The translations under genes and the position numbers were made by a program. From Clostridia bacterium BRH_c25 (GTDB taxonomy: Bacteria > Bacillota_A > Clostridia > Lutisporales > Lutisporaceae), in the NCBI GenBank assembly GCA_001515955.1, contig LOES01000202.1, positions 1 to 40,667 of the forward strand: a stretch of 40,667 bases of DNA, read 5' to 3'. A model generated the notes under the pieces. It made no database searches, was not told the DNA's origin, and saw nothing but the letters and a program-made list of their open reading frames with translations. Shown here piece by piece: positions 7,509-31,974 of the stretch (position 1 is the first letter of the stretch; each line of letters starts with the position of its first letter).

Positions 7509-8366
7509 TTATCTTGCCTCCAGCATCTCAGCTGCATTGTAGGAGCTTCTTACAAGAGGAGCTGAGGCTACAAAGGAAAAGCCCATCTTCAGAGCCCGCT
7601 CCTTATACATTTTGAAAACCTCCGGTGATATGTACTCAACAACCGGATAGTGCTTTGCACTTGGAGCAAGATACTGCCCAACGGTAAGAAAATCACAGCC
7701 AACGGAGCGAAGGTCTTTGAATACCTCAAGGACTTCCTCTTCCTTTTCTCCAAGGCCTACCATAACCCCTGACTTGGTCAATACACTGCTGTCTATTGAC
7801 TTTACGCGCTTTAAGAGCTCCAAAGAGCGCTCATACAAAGCTGCAGGACGTACTTCCGAATACAACCGTGGTACTGTTTCAACATTATGGTTCAATATTT
7901 CAGGTTTTGCTTTCACTACTGTTTCCAATGCGTCATAGCTCCCAAGAAAATCAGGAATCAGCACCTCTACTACAATGTCGCTTTTTAGAGCTTTTATTGC
8001 TTTAATCACTTCGGAAAAGTGCTTTGCTCCTCCATCGGGCAAATCATCCCGAGTCACAGAGGTTATGACTACATGCTTTAGTCCAAGCTCAAGGGCAGCA
8101 TTGGCAACATTCTGCGGTTCCTCCGGGTCAACAGGCTGTGCTTCCGCATGGGTAACATTACAGAAGCTGCAGTTTCTGGTGCATTGGCTGCCCAGTATCA
8201 TGAAGGTTGCAGTCTTTTTGCTGAAGCATTCCATCCTGTTTGGACAGTTTGCCTCTTCACATACTGTATTTAAGGAGAAGCGCTGAAGGATTTCCTTTAC
8301 ATAATCCAAGCTGCGCCCCTTGTTCAAATCTATTCTCAGCCACTCAGGCTTTCTTTTCACTTCCAT
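7509..8366 (-). CDS. lipA: Lipoyl synthase (radical SAM)
   Basis: This enzyme inserts two sulfurs into protein-bound octanoyl chains, making the lipoyl group needed by GcvH and 2-oxoacid dehydrogenases. Both iron-sulfur sites are visible: the auxiliary-cluster motif C-x4-C-x5-C ([12 protein letters not shown]) and the radical SAM motif C-x3-C-x2-C (CTRNCSFC). The C-terminal RSSYNA supplies the Ser ligand of the auxiliary cluster. The start is ATG 8366 (285 residues), because AGGAGGTG lies 6 nt upstream of it; the frame can be extended to 8387, but that places the ribosome site inside the coding region. It is the last gene of the gcv-lip operon, 23 bp after lipB. Confidence 0.97.
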
Positions 8367-8389
8367 TGGGTTCACCTCCTGAAACATAA

Positions 8390-9049
8390 TTAAAGGGACA
8401 GCTCTTCCGAACCATCATAATTAAAGATTTTACAAAAGTAATCAAGCACAAGCTTGTTGACATAATCAAATTCTATAATTTTTCCTGTAAGCTTCTGAAT
8501 GGAGGTGACACTTTTGCCGGATATTCCGCAGGGTACAATAAGCTTGAAATGTTCAAGATTTGTGTTTACATTGAAAGCGAAGCCGTGCATTGTAACCCCG
8601 CGCTTCACTGCCAACCCGACCGCAGCAATTTTGTTATTTCCTACCCATACTCCCGGGAACTCAGTGCTTATTCCGCTTTTGATACCGTAGTTTTCTTTAA
8701 GCAGCGTAATAAAGGTCTCTTCCAGCTTCTCTACAAATTCCCTTATTCCAATTCCTTTATCTCTTAGGCTGACTATAGGGTATCCTACAATCTGTCCGTC
8801 CCCATGGTAGGTTACATCTCCGCCCCGTTCTATATGATATAAACCTATCCCGTTATCTTTCAGGTATTTTTCCGGCACAACCACATTGGATTCTGCGGCG
8901 TTTCTTCCCAAGGTTATAACGGGGGAGTGTTCGACCAGGATCAGGGTATCTCCGATCTCACCCTTTTGTCTCTTTTCCAGGATATCATACTGGACATCCA
9001 AAGCCTTTTTATAGTCGCATCTTCCTAAATGCAATACATTCAGCTTCAT
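8390..9049 (-). CDS. lipB: Octanoyltransferase
   Basis: LipB moves octanoyl from octanoyl-ACP onto lipoyl domains, the step before LipA. The 219-residue protein has the family motifs [17 protein letters not shown], the catalytic Lys in [25 protein letters not shown], and the catalytic Cys in [10 protein letters not shown] (about residue 174). AAAGGAGCTGTGGGA precedes ATG 9049. It lies directly upstream of lipA and downstream of the glycine-cleavage genes, so octanoylation and sulfur insertion are made with their main substrate GcvH. No lipoate ligase (LplA) or dihydrolipoamide dehydrogenase is in the window. Confidence 0.97.
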
Positions 9050-9099
9050 TTCCCACAGCTCCTTTACAGATATACTTCCCGATGAGCACGTAATTTGGT

Positions 9100-9131
9100 A
9101 ATACCCTCCGCCTGTGCAAGCAGAGGGTATT
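9100..9131 (-). repeat. Intra-operon hairpin between the 9139 gene and lipB
   Basis: AATACCCTC (9100-9108) pairs with GAGGGTATT (9123-9131) across a 14-nt loop. It lacks a T tract. Its arms share GATACCCTC/ATACCCTC with the hairpin at 9651-9685, so the unknown gene is bracketed by two related stem-loops that may set relative mRNA levels within the operon. Confidence 0.55.
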
Positions 9132-9138
9132 GTTCCAC

Positions 9139-9639
9139 TTAAAAATCAACCTTTACAAGTTTTCCGTTTTCGTTCATAGTAATTTGAGTAATTTTTGAAA
9201 GCTGCGGAACCCCATCCACCTTTACACATTCAATTAGCTGATATACCTTTGAGGTATTGCCGTTAATCTTATAAGCATCCCCCAATATCTTAAGAACCGA
9301 ATAGGGATGGTCGGGGTCTTTAAGACTTATGAAGGATGAATCTGCTTTTAGCACTGCATCAGTGATAAGCTTTGCATAATCAATGTTACTCAGGTCGGCA
9401 ATCAAATAATAATCAGCTTCATCATTAAGGTCTTCAAAGCCTTTCACCTGTTTGATCTTAAAATTGCTTTTGGCTACTGCGCTGACTGTTGCCATCAGGG
9501 GAAGAATTCCAAAACCCTTATGTCCTGAAATTATAACTGAATCCTTTCTCATAACGGCTTCTTCAATATAATTTGCATGACCTTCAGTCATAAACTTCTG
9601 GTCTGCAAGCTTCTTCAAAAATGGATTAATGTTAATCAC
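9139..9639 (-). CDS. Degenerate VirB11/CpaF (secretion ATPase)-like protein in gcv-lip operon
   Basis: This roughly 163-166 residue protein has no recognised role. From memory of the family, its layout follows the C-terminal RecA-like domain of type II/IV secretion ATPases. A helix (MTEGHANYIEEAVMRKD) leads into VIISGHKGFGILPL, where CpaF has a GGTGSGKTTL P-loop. YYLIADLSNIDYAKLITDAVLKADSSFISLKDPDHPYSVLKIL then matches the region with Walker B and the TTIHANSP-type loop. The P-loop Lys and Thr are replaced by Ile and Leu, so ATP hydrolysis is unlikely. The start is uncertain: the GTG at 9639 touches the AAGGAG, whereas ATT at 9630 sits 8 nt behind it. The gene lies between gcvPB and lipB and is bracketed by hairpins. 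Confidence 0.7.
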   Translation of the reverse strand: MININPFLKKLADQKFMTEGHANYIEEAVMRKDSVIISGHKGFGILPLMATVSAVAKSNFKIKQVKGFEDLNDEADYYLIADLSNIDYAKLITDAVLKADSSFISLKDPDHPYSVLKILGDAYKINGNTSKVYQLIECVKVDGVPQLSKITQITMNENGKLVKVDF

Positions 9640-9650
9640 TCCTTATTTTG

Positions 9651-9685
9651 TTGATACCCTCCCCTTTTTGAGGGGAGGGTATCAA
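9651..9685 (-). repeat. 14-bp stem-loop between gcvPB and the 9139 gene
   Basis: TTGATACCCTCCCC (9651-9664) pairs perfectly with 9672-9685 across a 7-nt loop. On the transcript it ends about 6 nt before the AAGGAG of the downstream gene. With no T run, it more likely slows ribosomes or RNases or partially attenuates the transcript than ends it. Confidence 0.6.
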
Positions 9686-9697
9686 TAGTATCAACAT

Positions 9698-11161
9698 CTA
9701 TTGTTTGTTGCCGTCCCACTTCAAGATGAGGCTTCTTGCTGCTTTGGCTTCATCTATTCTTCTCACCCTTGTATCGTGGGGAGCTGTTTTTAATACTTCC
9801 GGATTCTCTTTAGCTTCTTCGGCAATTTTTATCATTATGTCGATGAAGCTGTCAAGGGTTTCCAGGCTTTCAGTTTCGGTAGGCTCTATCATGATCGCAT
9901 TGTTTACAATGAGCGGGAAGTAGATTGTCGGTGGATGATAACCATAGTCAAGAAGACGTTTTGCAACATCAAGTGTCGCAATATGATTCTCATTTTCCAG
10001 AAGCTCGCTCAAAACAAATTCATGCTTGCATACCTGATCCATCGGCAGCTCGTAATATTTCTTAAGCTTGCTCATCATATAGTTTGCATTAAGTACAGCC
10101 TTAAGGCTTACTTCCTTCAGGCCGTCGGCACCCATGGAGAGTATATAGGCATACGCCTTTACCGCCACTCCGAAATTACCGTAGAAGCTTTTGACCTTGC
10201 CGATGGAATGAGGTCTGGCATAGTCCAGTACGTAGGAATCCCCCTTCTTCTCTATAACAGGAACAGGAAGGAATTTAACCAACTTACTCTTGACTCCTAC
10301 CGGTCCGCTTCCCGGCCCGCCTCCGCCATGAGGAGTAGAGAAGGTTTTATGTAAATTAAGGTGAATTACATCAAAGCCCATATCTCCGGGTCTTGCAATT
10401 CCCATTATTGCATTTGCATTGGCTCCGTCGTAATACAGCAGTCCGCCTGCTTCATGAACCAGATCAGCTATTTGCTTTATGTTTTGCTCGAAAAGACCAA
10501 GGGTACTTGGATTTGTCAGCATTAAGCCTGCAATTTCATCATTCAGTACTCCTTTGAGGGTTTCAAGGTCAACAGCCCCGTTTTTATCTGATTCTATTTC
10601 CACAATTTCAAAACCGGCAACAGCAGCACTGGCTGGATTTGTTCCGTGAGCAGAGTCGGGAACTATTATCTTTTTTCTTTTATTATCTCCCCGGCTCTCG
10701 TGATAAGCTTTGATAATCATCAGTCCCGTCAGTTCGCCATGAGCCCCGGCAGCGGGCTGAAGACTTACTCTTTCCATACCGGTTATTTCCGAAAGCATGT
10801 TATCAAGTCCGTACATCAGCTCAAGAGCTCCCTGAACAGTTTCAACAGGCTGCAGAGGGTGAATATTGCTGAAGCCTCCAAGGGCAGCCACGTCTTCATT
10901 TATTTTGGGATTATACTTCATGGTACAGGAGCCTAGAGGATAGAACCCTGTATCCACTCCATAATTCTTATTGGAGAGGTTTGTAAAGTGTCTTACCACA
11001 TCTACTTCACTAACCTCCGGAAGGTCAGCCTCATCTGTTCTCAGCAGGGAACCGGGAATCATACTGTCCAGGCCGGCTTCGGGAACATCGCAGGTAGGCA
11101 GGCTGTAGGCTTTTCTTCCTTCTTTTGAAAGCTCAAAAATCAGCTTGTTATAATCCTTCAT
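9698..11161 (-). CDS. gcvPB: Glycine dehydrogenase (decarboxylating) subunit 2
   Basis: This is the PLP-binding half of the split P-protein, which decarboxylates glycine and loads aminomethyl onto lipoyl-GcvH. The pyridoxal phosphate Lys is in [20 protein letters not shown] (about residue 272), preceded by [20 protein letters not shown]. The N-terminal stretch [14 protein letters not shown] is typical. The protein has 487 residues, normal for the split form of Firmicutes, Thermotoga and archaea. ATG 11161 overlaps the gcvPA stop by four bases (ATGA), which implies translational coupling and a one-to-one heterodimer. Confidence 0.98.
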
Positions 11162-12501
11162 CGTACCACCTCCATTACCTGAGCCAGCTTGTCAATCTGT
11201 TCTTTTGTCCTTTTTTCGGTAACACACAGCAATAATCCGTTCTTTAATTCAGGATATTCCTTATCCAGCTCAAAGCCTCCGAGGATATTCTGCTTCAGCA
11301 GCTCATTATTCACCTTGCTGCTTGGTGCTTCACCAGCTACTGCAAATTCCTTGAAGAAGGGCTTGTCAAACATCAGCTTGAAATTCCCGTTCCTGGTAAG
11401 CTGCTTCATTGCGTAGTGGGCTTTCTTTGCACTCTGCTCTGCTACCTCCTTCAGACCTTTCTTGCCCAGGGTAGTCATGTAAATTGTTGCCATAAGGGCA
11501 TTCAGACCCTGGTTGGAGCAGATGTTGGAGGTCGCCTTGTATCTGCGTATATGCTGTTCTCTGGCCTGCAATGTAAGTACGAAGGCTCTTTTGCCGTCCA
11601 CATCCTCAGACTGGCCTACAATCCTACCGGGCATTTTTCTCATCAGCTTGGAGGTAGTGGCCAGGAATCCCAGGTAAGGGCCTCCAAAGCTCATGGTGTT
11701 ACCCAGGGATTGTCCTTCTCCCACAACTATGTCCACCCCCGACTCTGAGGGGCTTTTCAGTATTCCCAGAGAGATAGGGTCTACATAGTCTATCAGCACC
11801 GCTTTGTTTGCATGGGTAATTTTTTCGATCTCAGTCAAGTCTTCAATTACTCCGAAGAAGTTGGGGTTCTGCACAATAACACCGGCAGTACCGGCCTCAA
11901 CCAAGGCTTTCAGCTTTTCAACATCAGTAGCGCCGTTTGTCATATCAGCTTCAACAACTTCTACATCACGGAATCTCAGGTAGCTTTTCAGTACTTTTCT
12001 TACTTCCGGGTGTACCGTCCTTGAAACAATTATTGAGCTGCGCCTTGCACTCTCTACTGCCATCATGGCAGCTTCAACACAGGCAGTCGCTCCGTCATAC
12101 ATGGAAGCATTTGTTACATCCATGCCGGTCAGGCTGCAAATCATTGTCTGATACTCGAAAATAACCTGCAGAGTCCCCTGGCTTATTTCCGGCTGATAGG
12201 GGGTATATGCAGTGTAAAATTCGGATCTCATTGCCAGATGACTTACAATTGAGGGAATATAGTGGTCATATGCTCCTGCTCCCAGGAAGCAGACCAGATC
12301 ATCAGCACTTTTGTTTGTGCTGCTCAGACTTTTCATATGGTCCAAAAGCTCCAGCTCAGAAAGAGCACTGCGTATATCAAGCTTTTTCTGGAGTTGGAGT
12401 TCCTTTGGGATATCCACAAATAAATCTTCTATGGACTTTACTCCGATGCTGTCGAGCATCAACTTTTCGTCGGCCTCGGTATTTGGCATATACCTATGCA
12501 T
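11158..12501 (-). CDS. gcvPA: Glycine dehydrogenase (decarboxylating) subunit 1
   Basis: This is the non-PLP-lysine half of the split P-protein. It begins [20 protein letters not shown], the usual start for this family. ATG 12501 has TAAGGAGG about 5 nt upstream and lies one base after the gcvH stop; the longer frame to 12543 would run back into gcvH. Family segments seen are [28 protein letters not shown] and YEYQTMI-type sequence, then [18 protein letters not shown]. Length is 447 residues. It pairs with GcvPB, encoded directly downstream with an ATGA overlap. Confidence 0.98.
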
Positions 12502-12502
12502 A

Positions 12503-12886
12503 TTATGCCTCCTTACTGCAGAAATCCTTGTACTCCTGCTCATTCATGAGGTTATCAAGACTAGCTTTGTCTGTAATTTCTACCACTACAATCCAGCTTC
12601 CATATGGATCCTCATTAATAAGCTGAGGTGAATTCGATAATGCTTCATTTACTTCAAGAACTTTCCCTGAAACAGGAAGGTATGAGTCGGAGGCAGCCTT
12701 TACGGATTCAATAACTCCGAAAACATCTCCGGCATTAAGTTCATCGTCTACTGAGGGCAGCTCAACATATACAATCTCTCCCAAAGCATGCTGTGCATAA
12801 TCGGTTATTCCTACATAGGCTTTTTCACCCTCGACTCTGATCCACTCGTGATCATCTGAATAAAGCAATCCTGATTTTGTTTCCAT
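12503..12886 (-). CDS. gcvH: Glycine cleavage system H protein
   Basis: This lipoyl carrier shuttles the aminomethyl group from the P-protein to the T-protein. At 127 residues it is full length. The lipoylated Lys is K63 in [11 protein letters not shown], at the turn of the hybrid-motif beta barrel, and [12 protein letters not shown] near the N-terminus is typical. ATG 12886 has AGGAGG close upstream. It lies between gcvT and gcvPA; the lipB and lipA that modify it are in the same operon. Confidence 0.98.
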
Positions 12887-12917
12887 TTTACATTCCTCCT
12901 AAATTATTATTCTCAGA

Positions 12918-14024
12918 TTATTTTCTGTAGTTTTTATTATAGAATTTCCTGCTTACAACCTTAGCTTTTACAGCGTTCTTTCTTATCTGGATATCTATCG
13001 GTGTGCCAAGCTCGGAATATTCAATGCCAACCATTGCCAGGCCAATATTCTTCTTCAGTGAGGGGGAATAGTAACCGGTTGTTACGAAGCCTATATTCTT
13101 GCCATTGGACAATACGTCATATCCATGTCTTGGTATTCCAGGCCCCTCCATCTCAAATCCGACTATCTTTCTCTTTAAGCCTTCGGACTTTTGCTTTACC
13201 AAGGCTTCCTTCCCAATGAAATTGGGTTTGTCAAGCTTTACAAACATACCGAAGCCTGCTTCCAGAGGTGTGATTTCTGATGAAAGCTCATTTCCATAAA
13301 GGGGAAGGTTGGCTTCGAATCTGAGGGTATCCCTGCAACCGAGTCCCGTTGGCATTGCGCCCTTAGCTTTGCCTGCTTCAAGTATTTTATCCCATACATG
13401 TTCGGCATCTTCATGCTTCATATAAATCTCGAAGCCGTCTTCTCCGGTGTAGCCTGTACGGGATACTAGACAGCTCCTGCCTGCTATTTTTACATCTGTT
13501 TTGAAGTAGAAGAAAGCAATTTCATTGAGATTTGTATCAGTAAGCTCCTGGAGTATTTTCTGTGCTTTTGGCCCTTGCAGAGCAACTTCCGATACATCCT
13601 CGGAAGTATTCTTAAGCTCAACATCATAGTTTCCTACATTGTCCTTCATCCATTGGAAGTCTTTATCAACGTTGCTGGCATTTATTACAAGCAAATAATA
13701 ATCATTAGTATGTTTGTAGACCAGAAGATCGTCGACAACACCCCCGTGGGGATAGCACATCATAGCGTAGATAACTTGGTTCTCATTCATTACTGATATA
13801 TCGTTGGTGACAAGATTCTGAACAAAATCTGTTGCTTGATTTCCTCTTACTTCAACCTCACCCATGTGGGATACGTCAAAGATTCCTGCATTGGCCCTTA
13901 CTGCTTCATGCTCTGCTGTAAGGCCTTCATACTGTACCGGCAGGGCCCACCCAGCAAAATCAATGACCTTACCGCCATATTTTCCATGAGCATTATAAAG
14001 GGCTGTCTTTTTGGGGTCACTCAT
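12918..14024 (-). CDS. gcvT: Glycine cleavage system T protein (aminomethyltransferase)
   Basis: GcvT transfers the methylene group from aminomethyl-lipoyl-GcvH to tetrahydrofolate, releasing ammonia. The 368-residue protein shows DFAGWALPVQYEG near the N-terminus, FDVSHMGEVEVRG, and GGVVDDLLVYK with the catalytic Asp (about residue 97-98), then SRTGYTGEDGFEIY and LGCRDTLRFEANLPLYGNEL. AAAAAAAGGAGGAGAAATGCT precedes ATG 14024. It is the first gene of the operon, directly behind the glycine riboswitch, so glycine induction should act on the whole gcv-lip set. Confidence 0.98.
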   Translation of the reverse strand: MSDPKKTALYNAHGKYGGKVIDFAGWALPVQYEGLTAEHEAVRANAGIFDVSHMGEVEVRGNQATDFVQNLVTNDISVMNENQVIYAMMCYPHGGVVDDLLVYKHTNDYYLLVINASNVDKDFQWMKDNVGNYDVELKNTSEDVSEVALQGPKAQKILQELTDTNLNEIAFFYFKTDVKIAGRSCLVSRTGYTGEDGFEIYMKHEDAEHVWDKILEAGKAKGAMPTGLGCRDTLRFEANLPLYGNELSSEITPLEAGFGMFVKLDKPNFIGKEALVKQKSEGLKRKIVGFEMEGPGIPRHGYDVLSNGKNIGFVTTGYYSPSLKKNIGLAMVGIEYSELGTPIDIQIRKNAVKAKVVSRKFYNKNYRK

Positions 14025-14093
14025 AGCATTTCTCCTCCTTTTTTTAGTCTATTTATTCATCTTTTCCTATTGGATATAATATATTATTCCAAT

Positions 14094-14140
14094 AAAAAAG
14101 GAATATAATAGCGCGATAACTAGACCTGCCATTATATTCC
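14094..14140 (-). terminator. Expression-platform terminator of the glycine riboswitch
   Basis: On the minus strand, GGAATATAAT (from 14140 down to 14131) pairs with ATTATATTCC (14109 to 14100), followed by six U (14099-14094). The 5' arm overlaps the closing bases of aptamer 2 (CAGAGGAATAT), so glycine-stabilised P1 should compete with this stem and switch transcription on. A further palindrome at 14069-14095 (TATTGGA...TCCAATA) follows before the gcvT ribosome site. Confidence 0.85.
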
Positions 14141-14405
14141 TCTGTACTTTTGCCTGAGAGCTTCTACACAGTTAGTGTATTTCACCTACGGCGCCGTATA
14201 ACGGACTCTTCAGAGTTCCATCCAATAACGATCCATTTGCCTGAAAGTGTCTATAAAAAGAAGGCTTGCTTTTTATATTGCTTCTTCGGCTATCTAGTGC
14301 TTATTAACATAACAGCTTTCAAGTCAATCAAAATGTTAATAATGCACTTCATTGATGTTGTGCCCTGTTGCATTAGATATCTCTCGCTATTTTCATCTGG
14401 GTCAA
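14132..14405 (-). promoter_or_regulatory. Tandem glycine riboswitch, aptamer 1 with a long P2 insertion
   Basis: Read on the minus strand. Aptamer 1 has GCGAGAGATATCTA, then after an insertion TAGATAGCCGAAGAAGCAA, ending with CTTTCAGGCAAATGGA. Aptamer 2 has GGAACTCTGAAGAGTCCG, CGCCGTAGGTGAAA, and CTCTCAGGCAAAAGTACAGAGG. These match the glycine aptamer core (gagag, rCCGaAGgrGcAA, CUCUCAGGCAAAAGgaCAGAGg). In aptamer 1 the P2 helix (TATCTA/TAGATA) is capped by about 76 nt instead of a short loop, and that insert is homologous to 26523-26595. The location before gcvT and the terminator platform support an ON switch. Confidence 0.93.
14294..14366. repeat. 73-nt structured repeat, copy A, inside glycine aptamer 1
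   Basis: This segment aligns without gaps to 26523-26595 at 61 of 73 bases. A 14-bp stem (14297-14310 with 14333-14347, one bulged base) closes a 22-nt loop and is followed by a conserved tail (TTCATTGATGT.GTGCCCT). Three pairs in the stem differ between the copies, and all three keep pairing (G:C to A:T, T:A to C:G, A:T to G:C). It carries no reading frame and looks like a small non-autonomous element or a conserved RNA module. Confidence 0.8.
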
Positions 14406-28740: not shown

Positions 28741-30000
28741 ATGTCTCATGCAGCAGGGAAATCCGCATATAAGAGCTTGGAGGAAAGACTGAACAGATTT
28801 CCTCAGGGAGCACCGCCCTCGGAAACTCTGTATAAAATCCTGAGCATTCTGTTTAGCGAGAAAGAGGCAGAGCTTGCAGCCCAACTGCCTATAAAGCCCT
28901 TTACTGCCAAAACTGCCGCAGGCATATGGAAAATCAATGAGACACAGGCACAATTGATTCTCGATGAGCTTTCAGGAAGAGCGATACTTCTGGATACTGA
29001 GCATGAGGGAGTGCGGAGATATGTGCTTCCGCCGCCTATGGCAGGCTTTATAGAATTCTCAATGATGAGGACACGGCAGGATATTGACCAGAAGCTTCTT
29101 GGGGAGCTCTATTATCAGTATCTGAATGTGGAGGAGGATTTCATAAAGGAGCTGTTCTTCGGGACTGATACAAAGCTGGGAAGGGTTTTTGTCCAGGAAG
29201 AGGTGCTTTCCAGGGATAATGAGATCGAGATACTGGATTTTGAAAGAGCCAGCCATATAATTAGAAGTGCTTCCCATATAGGCATAAGTACCTGCTACTG
29301 CCGTCACAAGATGCAGCATGCAGGGCAGGCCTGCAATGCTCCGATGGATATATGCATGACCTTTAACGGCACAGCCGATTCGCTGATAAGACATAACCAT
29401 GCAAGGAGAGTGGATGCGGCAGAGTGCATCGAGCTCTTGCATCAAGCCTATGAAAGCAATCTGGTTCAGTGCGGCGAGAATGTGCGGAATGGAGTGACCT
29501 TCATTTGCAACTGCTGTGGCTGCTGCTGCGAGGCGATGGTGGCGGCACGAAAGTTCGGTATGCTTCATCCTGTCCAAACCACAGGCTTTATGCCGGATAT
29601 AAAAGCTGAGGACTGTATTGGCTGTGAAAGGTGTATCAAGGCTTGCCCTATCGGGGCAATTGAAGCGGATACTGCAAATGGCAAAGTAATGATAAATGAG
29701 GAGGTATGCCTCGGCTGTGGTGTATGCGCAAGATCCTGCATCAGGAAAGCAATAACTTTGGAAAGGCGCAGCGAGAAAATAATTACCCCGGTCAATTCGG
29801 TACATAGAATAGTTCTGATGGCCATAGAAAAAGGAACTCTGCAAAACCTGATTTTTGACAACCGCGCCTTTGGAAGTCATAGAGCTATGGCCGCCGTACT
29901 TTCGGCTATATTGAAGCTGCCTCCTGTAAAGCAGGTTATGGCAAGCAGTCAAATGAAGTCTGTTTATCTTGACAAGTTAATCAGCAGACTAAGCAAATAG
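28741..30000 (+). CDS. Two-cluster ferredoxin-domain protein with winged-helix N-terminus
   Basis: This 419-residue cytoplasmic protein begins with an HTH-like segment (about 45-95). A cysteine-rich middle follows (STCYCRHKM at about 182, ACNAPMDIC, and ICNCCGCCC at about 258). Two 4Fe-4S motifs come next, CIGCERCIKACP (from residue 292) and CLGCGVCARSC. The C-terminus is helical. Proteins of this layout occur in anaerobic Firmicutes, but I know of no assigned reaction; an electron-transfer or sensing role is likely. GGTGGTGGGAAC precedes the ATG. The candidate selenoprotein gene begins 42 bp downstream and may be co-transcribed. Confidence 0.8.
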   Translation: MSHAAGKSAYKSLEERLNRFPQGAPPSETLYKILSILFSEKEAELAAQLPIKPFTAKTAAGIWKINETQAQLILDELSGRAILLDTEHEGVRRYVLPPPMAGFIEFSMMRTRQDIDQKLLGELYYQYLNVEEDFIKELFFGTDTKLGRVFVQEEVLSRDNEIEILDFERASHIIRSASHIGISTCYCRHKMQHAGQACNAPMDICMTFNGTADSLIRHNHARRVDAAECIELLHQAYESNLVQCGENVRNGVTFICNCCGCCCEAMVAARKFGMLHPVQTTGFMPDIKAEDCIGCERCIKACPIGAIEADTANGKVMINEEVCLGCGVCARSCIRKAITLERRSEKIITPVNSVHRIVLMAIEKGTLQNLIFDNRAFGSHRAMAAVLSAILKLPPVKQVMASSQMKSVYLDKLISRLSK

Positions 30001-30042
30001 GATATCTGATGTTCTATATTATATGAGATAGGAGGAATTCAA

Positions 30043-30306
30043 ATGAAAAAGATTATTGTATTTGGGAGCAGGCATTGACCGGATTGTGAACCGATGAAAG
30101 AGTTTCTTTCAAATAATGGCATTAACTATGAGTATATTGAAATAACAGATAGTATAAGGAATCTCAAAATATATCTCAAGCTGAGAGATACAAGGCCTGA
30201 ATTCGATGAAATAAAAAGGATTGGCAGAGTAGGCATACCCTTTATAATTATAAACAACGGGGAAAAGCTTATATTTGAAAAGCCTGAATTGGATGAGCTG
30301 AGATAG
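30043..30306 (+). CDS. Glutaredoxin-like protein with in-frame UGA (probable selenocysteine)
   Basis: The frame starts at ATG 30043 behind ATAGGAGGAATTC and reads MKKIIVFGSRH-U-PDCEPMKEFL, with TGA at 30076-30078 in the first position of the glutaredoxin C-x-x-C motif. After it the frame stays open for 75 codons, with a normal Grx fold pattern (beta-alpha-beta, then VGIP with the cis-Pro, then a C-terminal helix). A 6-bp hairpin (30095-30100 with 30106-30111) with loop AGUUU begins about 17 nt after UGA, and the loop has G in its second position, as in bacterial SECIS elements. I infer Sec insertion at residue 12 (87 residues in all). The alternative is a nonsense mutation or read error; a start at ATG 30094 would lose the active site. 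Confidence 0.8.
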
Positions 30307-30352
30307 CGAATAAAGAAGTATGTATAGCATTTTGCTATACATACTTTATTCG
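30307..30352. terminator. Stem-loop between selenoprotein and ggt genes
   Basis: AAGTATGTATAGCA (30316-30329) pairs with 30333-30346, extended by CGAATA/TATTCG (30307-30312 with 30347-30352) with a 3-nt bulge. The loop is TTT. It starts right after the TAG of the selenoprotein frame and lies 12 bp from the convergent ggt stop, so it probably ends both transcripts, although no U tract is present. Confidence 0.65.
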
Positions 30353-30363
30353 AAGCTTCCAAA

Positions 30364-31974
30364 TTACCAGGCTGCAATTGTGCCATCCGCCCTCGGCTCA
30401 GTGCCTCCGGCCATTGTGCCCATTTCATCCCGCCATATGATTTGCCCTCTTCCGAAGCTTCCGGATTCGGTATTGGTTCTCATATTATGTCCTTTATTTG
30501 CCAGGGCTTGCATTGCACTGGAAGAAAAAGCCTGTTCCACTGCTATATCTTTTTCCTTGATCCACTGCCACCTGGGTGCATCCAGACAGTCCTGGGGGTT
30601 CATGTGGAAATCAACAGTGTTCATTATCACCTGGACATGACCTTGAGGCTGCATGAAACCGCCCATTACCCCGAAAGGCCCTATTGCTTCGCTTCCCTTG
30701 GCAAGGAACCCGGGGATTATGGTATGGTAAGGTTTTTTTCCCGGGGCTATACAATTTTCGTGGGCAGGGTCTGTGGAGAAATTACAGCCCCTGTTGTGAA
30801 GGCTTATTCCCGTTTCGGGTATCACAATACCTGAACCGAAGCCCATATAATTGCTTTGGATATAGGAGACCATGTTGCCTTCACCATCTGCGGCAGCCAG
30901 GTATACAGTACCGCTTCCCGCAGGCTGACCCGGCATAGGCATCAGCGCCTCATCCCTGATAAGCTTTCTTCTTGAAGAGGCATAATCATCGGAAAGCAGT
31001 TCGTCAATTGATACTTTCATGTGTCTGCGGTCTGCAATATAGCTGTGGCCGTCGGCATATGCAAGCTTCATTGCCTCCAGCTGACGGTGATAAGTCTCAA
31101 CAGAGTCTCTTTCTGAAAAGTCAAAGCCCTTGAGGATATTCAAAGCGATTAATGCTACAATTCCATGTCCGTTTGGAGGTATTTCCCACACATCATAGCC
31201 ACGATAATTGATATTCACCGGATCTACCCATTCCGGTTCGAAATTTTCCAAATCCTTCCCGGATAGATATCCTCCGGTATTCTTAGCAAAATCTATTATA
31301 TTTTCTGCCAGCTTTCCCCTGTAAAAGGCTTCGGCATTTGTTCCGCCAATAGCCTGCAAGGTTCTGCCATGTGCAGGAGAAGTCCACAGCTCACCTGCCC
31401 TGGGTGCCCTGCCCATGGGGGCGAAGGTTTCGAACCAGTGCCGGAATATTTCATCCTTCAGAGCTACCTTGTAGGTCTGGTATGCTATTTCCCAGTTTTT
31501 TGCTACGGTAGGTGCGATGGGATGTCCTTCAACAGCATAGGTCACAGCCGGAGACAAAGTCTCTGCAAGGGAGAGTCTGCCAAAACGCTTGGACAGTGCA
31601 TTCCATGCAGAGGGGGCACCCGGGACGGTGACAGGGACCCAGCCATGCTTGGGTATCCCGCGGCTTTCTGCCTTTTCGATAATATCTGTAGGAATAGAGG
31701 CTGGTGCAGGCCCACTGGCATTCAGACCATAGAGCTTTCCCTTCGACCATACCAGAGCAAAGGCATCTCCGCCGATTCCGTTTGAAGTAGGTTCCACTAC
31801 TGTCAGACAGGCAGCCGCAGCGACGGCAGCATCAATAGCATTGCCCCCCTTCTTGAGGATATCCAGGCCTGCTTGTGCTGCCAAGGGATGTGAAGTAGCA
31901 ACCATGCCCTTCCTTCCGTATACCAGATTCCTCCTGGATGAATAGTTGTACTTGTATGGATCAAATTTCATCAC
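30364..31974 (-). CDS. Gamma-glutamyltransferase family Ntn-hydrolase
   Basis: This 536-residue protein is of the GGT family, which cleaves gamma-glutamyl bonds (glutathione and related amides) after self-processing. The N-terminal MVATSHPLAAQAGLDILKKGGNAIDAAVA and TSNGIGGDAFALVW are typical, and the self-cleaving, catalytic Thr is in GSGTVYLAAADGEGNMVS (about residue 356), starting the small subunit. FMQPQGHVQV is also seen. There is no signal peptide, so it is probably cytoplasmic, like YwrD/GgtA-type homologs. GGGAGGGAACAAAA favours GTG 31974; ATG 31971 is an alternative. It is 24 bp downstream of the GH3 gene in the same direction. Confidence 0.93.
   Translation of the reverse strand: MMKFDPYKYNYSSRRNLVYGRKGMVATSHPLAAQAGLDILKKGGNAIDAAVAAAACLTVVEPTSNGIGGDAFALVWSKGKLYGLNASGPAPASIPTDIIEKAESRGIPKHGWVPVTVPGAPSAWNALSKRFGRLSLAETLSPAVTYAVEGHPIAPTVAKNWEIAYQTYKVALKDEIFRHWFETFAPMGRAPRAGELWTSPAHGRTLQAIGGTNAEAFYRGKLAENIIDFAKNTGGYLSGKDLENFEPEWVDPVNINYRGYDVWEIPPNGHGIVALIALNILKGFDFSERDSVETYHRQLEAMKLAYADGHSYIADRRHMKVSIDELLSDDYASSRRKLIRDEALMPMPGQPAGSGTVYLAAADGEGNMVSYIQSNYMGFGSGIVIPETGISLHNRGCNFSTDPAHENCIAPGKKPYHTIIPGFLAKGSEAIGPFGVMGGFMQPQGHVQVIMNTVDFHMNPQDCLDAPRWQWIKEKDIAVEQAFSSSAMQALANKGHNMRTNTESGSFGRGQIIWRDEMGTMAGGTEPRADGTIAAW

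Follow-up and report, generated by a model that had tools for sequence, protein, structure and literature searches.

An in-frame TGA as a probable selenocysteine codon in a glutaredoxin-fold gene of Clostridia bacterium BRH_c25

Contig LOES01000202.1 of Clostridia bacterium BRH_c25 (assembly GCA_001515955.1, positions 1 to 40,667 of the forward strand) was analysed over its 40,667 nucleotides (nt), a stretch called the window here. It carries a small glutaredoxin-like gene with an in-frame TGA where the first cysteine of the active site would be expected, which raises the question of whether this codon ends translation or is read as an amino acid. From the comparison of sequences, we conclude that it very probably encodes selenocysteine (Sec) at residue 12 of a small redox protein, which would then be encoded by way of an internal stop codon. 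There is little doubt in our assessment that the gene product is an 87-residue selenoprotein with the glutaredoxin fold, in which Sec12 would be inserted through a hairpin resembling a selenocysteine insertion sequence (SECIS) and the elongation factor SelB, and would form a selenol/thiol redox site.

The frame consists of 11 codons (MKKIIVFGSRH), the TGA, the residues PDC and then 72 codons to the TAG (Table 1). When Cys was put in place of the TGA, the protein scored 34.9 bits with the PF00462 Glutaredoxin profile, whose gathering score is 22.9. The initial annotation had placed the TGA at the first Cys of a glutaredoxin CxxC motif, behind intact upstream codons and an AGGAGG site and ahead of a complete glutaredoxin pattern including the cis-Pro, and all of this is borne out by the sequence and its translation. 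It had also predicted that an ordinary gene caller would start at ATG 30094 and miss the active site, and the mechanical list of open reading frames (ORFs) gives exactly that.

Table 1. Coordinates of the glutaredoxin locus and of other features of the window
Feature	Position	Strand	Remarks
Full frame of the putative Sec glutaredoxin	30043..30306	+	87 residues, MKKIIVFGSRHUPDC...DELR; ATG 30043, stop TAG 30304-30306
AGGAGG ribosome-binding site	30030..30035	+	7 nt 5' of ATG 30043
UGA codon, residue 12, first UxxC position; putative Sec codon	30076..30078	+	TGA 75/119, TGT/TGC 44/119 distinct relatives
TGT, resolving Cys15 of U-P-D-C	30085..30087	+	Cys in 59/59 TGA, 37/40 Cys members
CCC, cis-Pro66 within VGIP (residues 63-66)	30238..30240	+	column invariant in 19-row alignment A2
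SECIS-like hairpin UGAAAG-AGUUU-CUUUCA	30095..30111	+	22 nt 3' of UGA, G = second loop position
Shortened 70-residue ORF without active site, reported by gene callers	30094..30306	+	standard ORF list; database entry P0005
Hairpin, 14 bp, between convergent glutaredoxin and ggt genes; probable terminator	30316..30346	.	T-rich tail on - strand; z -5.98 for 30300-30360
Gamma-glutamyltransferase-like gene (ggt), convergent with glutaredoxin gene	30364-31974	-	349.7 bits, just below cut-off 357.85
419-residue protein, C-terminal 4Fe-4S ferredoxin part, Cys-rich middle (CYCRH...CNCCGCCC)	28741-30000	+	stop 42 nt before glutaredoxin start
Two glycine riboswitch aptamers	14140-14215, 14219-14396	-	Rfam
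GcvT	12918-14024	-	
GcvPA	11158-12543	-	
GcvPB	9698-11161	-	
LipB	8390-9049	-	
Lipoyl synthase	7509-8387	-	

Searching some 5.8 billion proteins yielded 137 homologs, and 120 of these were listed. Among those listed, 112 cover about 80% of the query and are without the active site, the window's own entry P0005 being among them, and eight are longer, with C at residue 12 in six and W in two (P0003 and P0006). The shortened 70-residue piece is found on 13 public contigs, of which the longest has 314,049 bases. The codon was read at the DNA level. A first contig scan gave 21 loci, 18 with TGA and three with TGT or TGC, and when overlapping sets of 22, 225, 249 and 391 genomes were searched, those with a match numbered 13, 34, 148 and 45, respectively. 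One carrier of the gene is the culturable Fonticella tunisiensis DSM 24455 (locus L008). With a lower limit of 45 bits, the returned loci provided 99 distinct members whose codon was read (TGA 59, TGC 21, TGT 19). A further 21 stop-bearing matches, taken from among the matches listed, were fetched, and these comprised 16 new distinct TGA members, one repeat and four TGT rows in which the TAA or TAG inside the match is the natural C-terminal end. In total, column 12 is TGA in 75 of 119 members, TGT or TGC in 44 and a third codon in none, a count of loci read at the DNA level that leaves out non-returned matches without an in-frame stop and those Cys-bearing database homologs that are close to the window (e.g. 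P0002, P0004).

The homologs were thus found to have only Cys or TGA at the column where a conserved Cys or Sec had been expected, and the exchange between Sec and Cys is confined to this column. A read error at 30076-30078, which had been named as a possible weakness, is very unlikely because the same TGA is shared by 74 other distinct sequences. The tree of the 99 rows places the window in an all-TGA group of eight (Shimodaira-Hasegawa approximate likelihood-ratio test 88, not starred); it has too few columns for rooting the Sec/Cys changes, of which there are six, at least three being forced by starred branches. As a whole, the comparison with relatives strongly supports the Sec interpretation.

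The genes for Sec insertion were scored in the genomes from the first contig scan (18 TGA, three Cys), a set outside which the window's own genome lies. Both selA and selD were above the cut-off in 19 of the 21, namely all 18 TGA genomes and G021, which has a Cys form. Scores for selB passed in 18 (17 TGA genomes and G021), with the gene split across two contig ends in the TGA genome G005. The two remaining genomes with Cys forms, G016 and G020, had none of selA, selB and selD above the cut-off. An in-frame TGA lies inside each of the 19 selD matches above the cut-off and provides an internal control that the hosts decode UGA. For tRNA-Sec (selC), G021 and 14 of the 18 TGA genomes had a match above the cut-off. 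Among close relatives, selA, selB, selC and selD all pass the cut-off in G002 and G004, and likewise in G003, with a partial selA match (157-452 of 455) and a selD truncated by the contig start; G001 has selA, selB and selD above the cut-off, and tRNA-Sec not.

The hairpin was considered against the limits published for bacterial SECIS (bSECIS) elements, which we applied by hand to the window and its relatives. As given in PMC13188914, these are a loop of 3-9 nt, a stem of 4-16 bp, a G among the first two positions of the loop, a spacing of 16-37 nt and a minimum free energy of at most -7.5. In the window, positions 30095-30100 pair with 30106-30111 around the loop at 30101-30105, and ViennaRNA additionally pairs A30101 with U30105, giving 7 bp and the loop GUU. 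The hairpin was found where the initial annotation had placed it, at bacterial SECIS spacing, and it lies within the limits with 6 bp (7 with the A-U pair), the loop AGUUU, 22 nt from the UGA and -8.0 kcal/mol for the 48 nt from the UGA.

Across relatives, the TGA hairpin set comprised 98 genes, 75 of the window type and 23 of the type of cGrx1, the selenoprotein glutaredoxin-1 of Clostridium (Alkaliphilus) oremlandii, and the Cys control set comprised 40; for the former, 13 of the 28 listed TGA rows of the cGrx1 search not returned as loci were fetched. Under the published rules for loop and spacing, 92 of the 98 TGA genes versus three of the 40 Cys genes have a stem of 6 bp or more, and synonymous shuffles of the 98 TGA rows gave a mean of 14.5 rows with such a stem and a maximum of 22. 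The pattern GAARGAG..YCTTTC stands in the window register in 59/75 window-type and 16/23 cGrx1-type genes, and the remainder mostly have another stem. The same constraint can be seen in the codons. Ala18 is GCG in 20 of 21 cases in TGA members (n=59) versus one of 27 in Cys members (n=40), Leu22 is CTT in 56/59 TGA members versus 9 of the 31 Leu in Cys members, and residue 23 is Ser in 53/59 versus 3/40. The mean z of the synonymous shuffles was -1.72 in the 59 TGA rows and +0.16 in the 40 Cys rows. In the 98-row alignment, 86.6% of cells are paired, versus 82.7% when shuffled and 39.5-64.3% in slid registers, and 23 cells of the true register have changes on both sides (shuffled mean 9.2; 0/500 as high), with rebuilt stems visible in L050, L151, L154, L156 and L175 among others. 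Intact hairpins are also present in the Cys genes L126, L131 and L142. Taken across relatives, the hairpin is far beyond chance and conserved past the needs of the protein.

Several observations weigh against reading the TGA as Sec by means of this hairpin. Taken alone, the window hairpin is close to ordinary and beyond chance only weakly: in isolation it has -5.2 kcal/mol and passes the -7.5 limit only with its flanks, the 48 nt from the UGA have z -0.79 in dinucleotide shuffles (the 21-nt hairpin alone -2.45), the 36 nt after Cys15 have z -0.64 in synonymous shuffles, and the 7-bp stem is equalled in 4.7% of synonymous shuffles. Six of the 98 TGA rows are without a 6-bp stem, and in L053 and L057 no stem within the first 48 nt qualifies at all. 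The register slid by +3 has 26 double-change cells versus 23 in the true one, though only 39.5% of its cells pair, and in the first 59 rows the +1 register has 11 versus 5; because these registers outscore the true one, the covariation is supportive and the evidence from synonymous codons is stronger. The contrast between TGA and Cys rows is not matched for divergence because the Cys rows generally come from more distant relatives, a weakness of which the synonymous shuffles are free. On the side of the machinery, tRNA-Sec is below the cut-off in four of the 18 TGA genomes (G001, G009, G012 and G019), all titled as metagenome-assembled genomes (MAGs), there is no tRNA gene within the window, and no second match of the model R1 was found in the window at E below 0.5.

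Two groups of TGA members differ in their hairpins. L053, L055 and L057 lack the usual one and may use another SECIS type. In L158, L159 and L160 a divergent hairpin, UUUCAAG...CUUGAAA, was seen by eye, with a loop that starts with G and a register shifted by one base.

The structure model has a glutaredoxin fold, with a mean predicted local distance difference test score (pLDDT) of 81.7 and only 65 for residues 11-20. A Foldseek search with this model had no match at E ≤ 0.001, and the family assignment therefore relies on profile, active site and the VIA-align Z, for which the best structural match is cGrx1 (PDB 7c10/7c12), a native selenoprotein. The predicted structure combines a thioredoxin/glutaredoxin fold with C/UxxC and a cis-Pro. 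In the profile alignment to 7c10, the window protein has an insert of about 13 residues before the cis-Pro strand, which cGrx1 is without, and its active site is UPDC as opposed to CPHC/UPHC; it does not have the compact, insert-free form of cGrx1-type proteins. Most cGrx1-type TGA genes have the same hairpin as the window family.

Sec glutaredoxins (PF00462, UxxC) are already in published inventories (PMC13188914, PMC9312934, PMC1794560), whose accessible parts describe the same domain and Sec motif as in the window protein and do not set the window-type subfamily apart. Alkaliphilus metalliredigens is entered with two Sec glutaredoxins in a table of the 2006 inventory, and both subfamilies are represented by one TGA gene in the Alkaliphilus MAG G014 (L014 window-type, L123 cGrx1-type), so the window subfamily may already have been counted, unnamed. 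A literature search at the level of titles, which is no proof of absence, found no title singling it out. The UXX-star selenoproteins are likewise small and glutaredoxin-like, but the window protein misses their cut-offs (NF041212, 23.2 of 66 bits; NF041114, 17.8 of 72 bits) and retains the resolving Cys, whereas UXX-star family 1 is given as UxxT. The window protein stayed below the cut-off of every NCBIfam model, the best match being the YruB family (TIGR02196) with 37.7 bits versus a cut-off of 88.55. From these comparisons, the window gene appears to belong to an insert-bearing subfamily of the known Sec glutaredoxins.

If the gene works as proposed, translation would start at ATG 30043 and the hairpin would recruit SelB with Sec-tRNA(Sec) at UGA 30076, so that, judging from the comparison, Sec would be inserted at residue 12. 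By the example of cGrx1 and from the fold, Sec12-Pro-Asp-Cys15 would form a selenol/thiol redox site. Sec12 could attack an oxidised substrate, either a disulfide or an oxidised Cys, Sec or Met-sulfoxide enzyme, Cys15 would resolve the mixed intermediate, and a cellular reductant would restore the site. An action as a glutathione-type glutaredoxin is putative in view of the insert and of the ligase genes in the hosts. The host genomes lend no support to glutathione as a general reductant: of the 18 TGA genomes, none has GshF above the cut-off, seven have GCS2 and 11 have neither, a result that includes several draft MAGs and was obtained without a search for other ligase types.

The protein could instead contain Sec without being a disulfide reductase, and act as a peroxidase-like or metal-binding redoxin, which we consider unlikely. 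The insert relative to cGrx1, the 11 TGA genomes with neither glutathione ligase above the cut-off and a partner gene conservation that was not found beyond close relatives would all fit with such a role, and metal binding has been suggested for UXX-star selenoproteins in PMC13188914. However, both redox residues are retained (Cys15 as given in Table 1), the cis-Pro is invariant in the 19 rows of A2, and the predicted fold is that of a glutaredoxin.

Much less probable is that the TGA is a normal stop, with 30043-30078 as a short leader and the 70-residue ORF from ATG 30094 as the real protein. The many database homologs without an N-terminus look like such a protein, but codon 18, where gene callers start, is ATG in just 7 of the 59 TGA members and Ala in 21. 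Sequence resembling a ribosome-binding site lies 5' of codon 1 in 51 of the 58 TGA relatives with enough upstream sequence, and 5' of codon 18 in 8 of 59. Codons 2-11 evolve as protein, since over all pairs of the 59 TGA members 65% of single-base codon differences are synonymous versus 15% and 8% in the other frames, and the Cys relatives are translated straight across residue 12. By this comparative evidence, the stretch ahead of the TGA is translated.

The chance that the TGA is decoded as tryptophan (genetic code 4) is minimal. The W in P0003 and P0006 (contigs of 646 and 955 bases) points that way, and is most probably due to a gene caller using code 4; against it, TGG occurs at residue 12 in none of the 119 relatives, the first 18 TGA genomes carry Sec machinery, and the adjacent long frames are open under table 11. 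A pseudogene, with the frame broken by mutation or read error, could presumably look like a single premature TGA, but this is just as negligible and in practice ruled out at the family level, given the same codon in the same column of so many other sequences, and each TGA match has one TGA and no other stop inside.

Synteny within 5.5 kb was compared between the window and 19 loci, of which some have short flanks (e.g. L001 upstream), and no conserved partner gene was found there beyond close kin. The Fe-S protein upstream and a phosphotriesterase-like gene are not shared by the compared relatives. The convergent ggt is common to L001 (80.6% identity to the window) and L002 (79.3%), and pieces cut by locus ends are found in L003 and L035. 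As ggt lies on the opposite strand and is limited to close kin, it was not adopted as a functional partner and no pathway was built on it. Over the whole window, Rfam at gathering thresholds gave only two glycine riboswitches, and when 29950-30400 was searched by E-value, the only Rfam match was a weak one to a C. elegans snoRNA over the terminator hairpin. The riboswitches belong to a glycine cleavage and lipoate cluster at 7509-14396 (- strand).

To summarise, the glutaredoxin gene of the window would represent a conserved selenoprotein subfamily that is stored in databases mainly as fragments without the active site, and the selenoproteomes of the hosts are therefore probably undercounted. 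Since a selenoprotein of solved structure is the closest relative that has been characterised, activity tests would be direct. The Sec and Cys forms, some having the hairpin and others lacking it, offer a good natural experiment on how a SECIS within a coding region constrains the protein, and on its decay after Sec-to-Cys replacement. We put forward tentatively, at somewhat less than even chances, the joint reading of a separate, glutathione-independent Firmicutes selenoredoxin subfamily in which the SECIS hairpin dictates K-E-F/Y-L-S, with the same hairpin block in the cGrx1 subfamily. If this is true, KEFLS would be a protein motif imposed by RNA, which drifts or vanishes upon Sec-to-Cys replacement, and the Cys genes with intact hairpins would mark recent changes of this kind.
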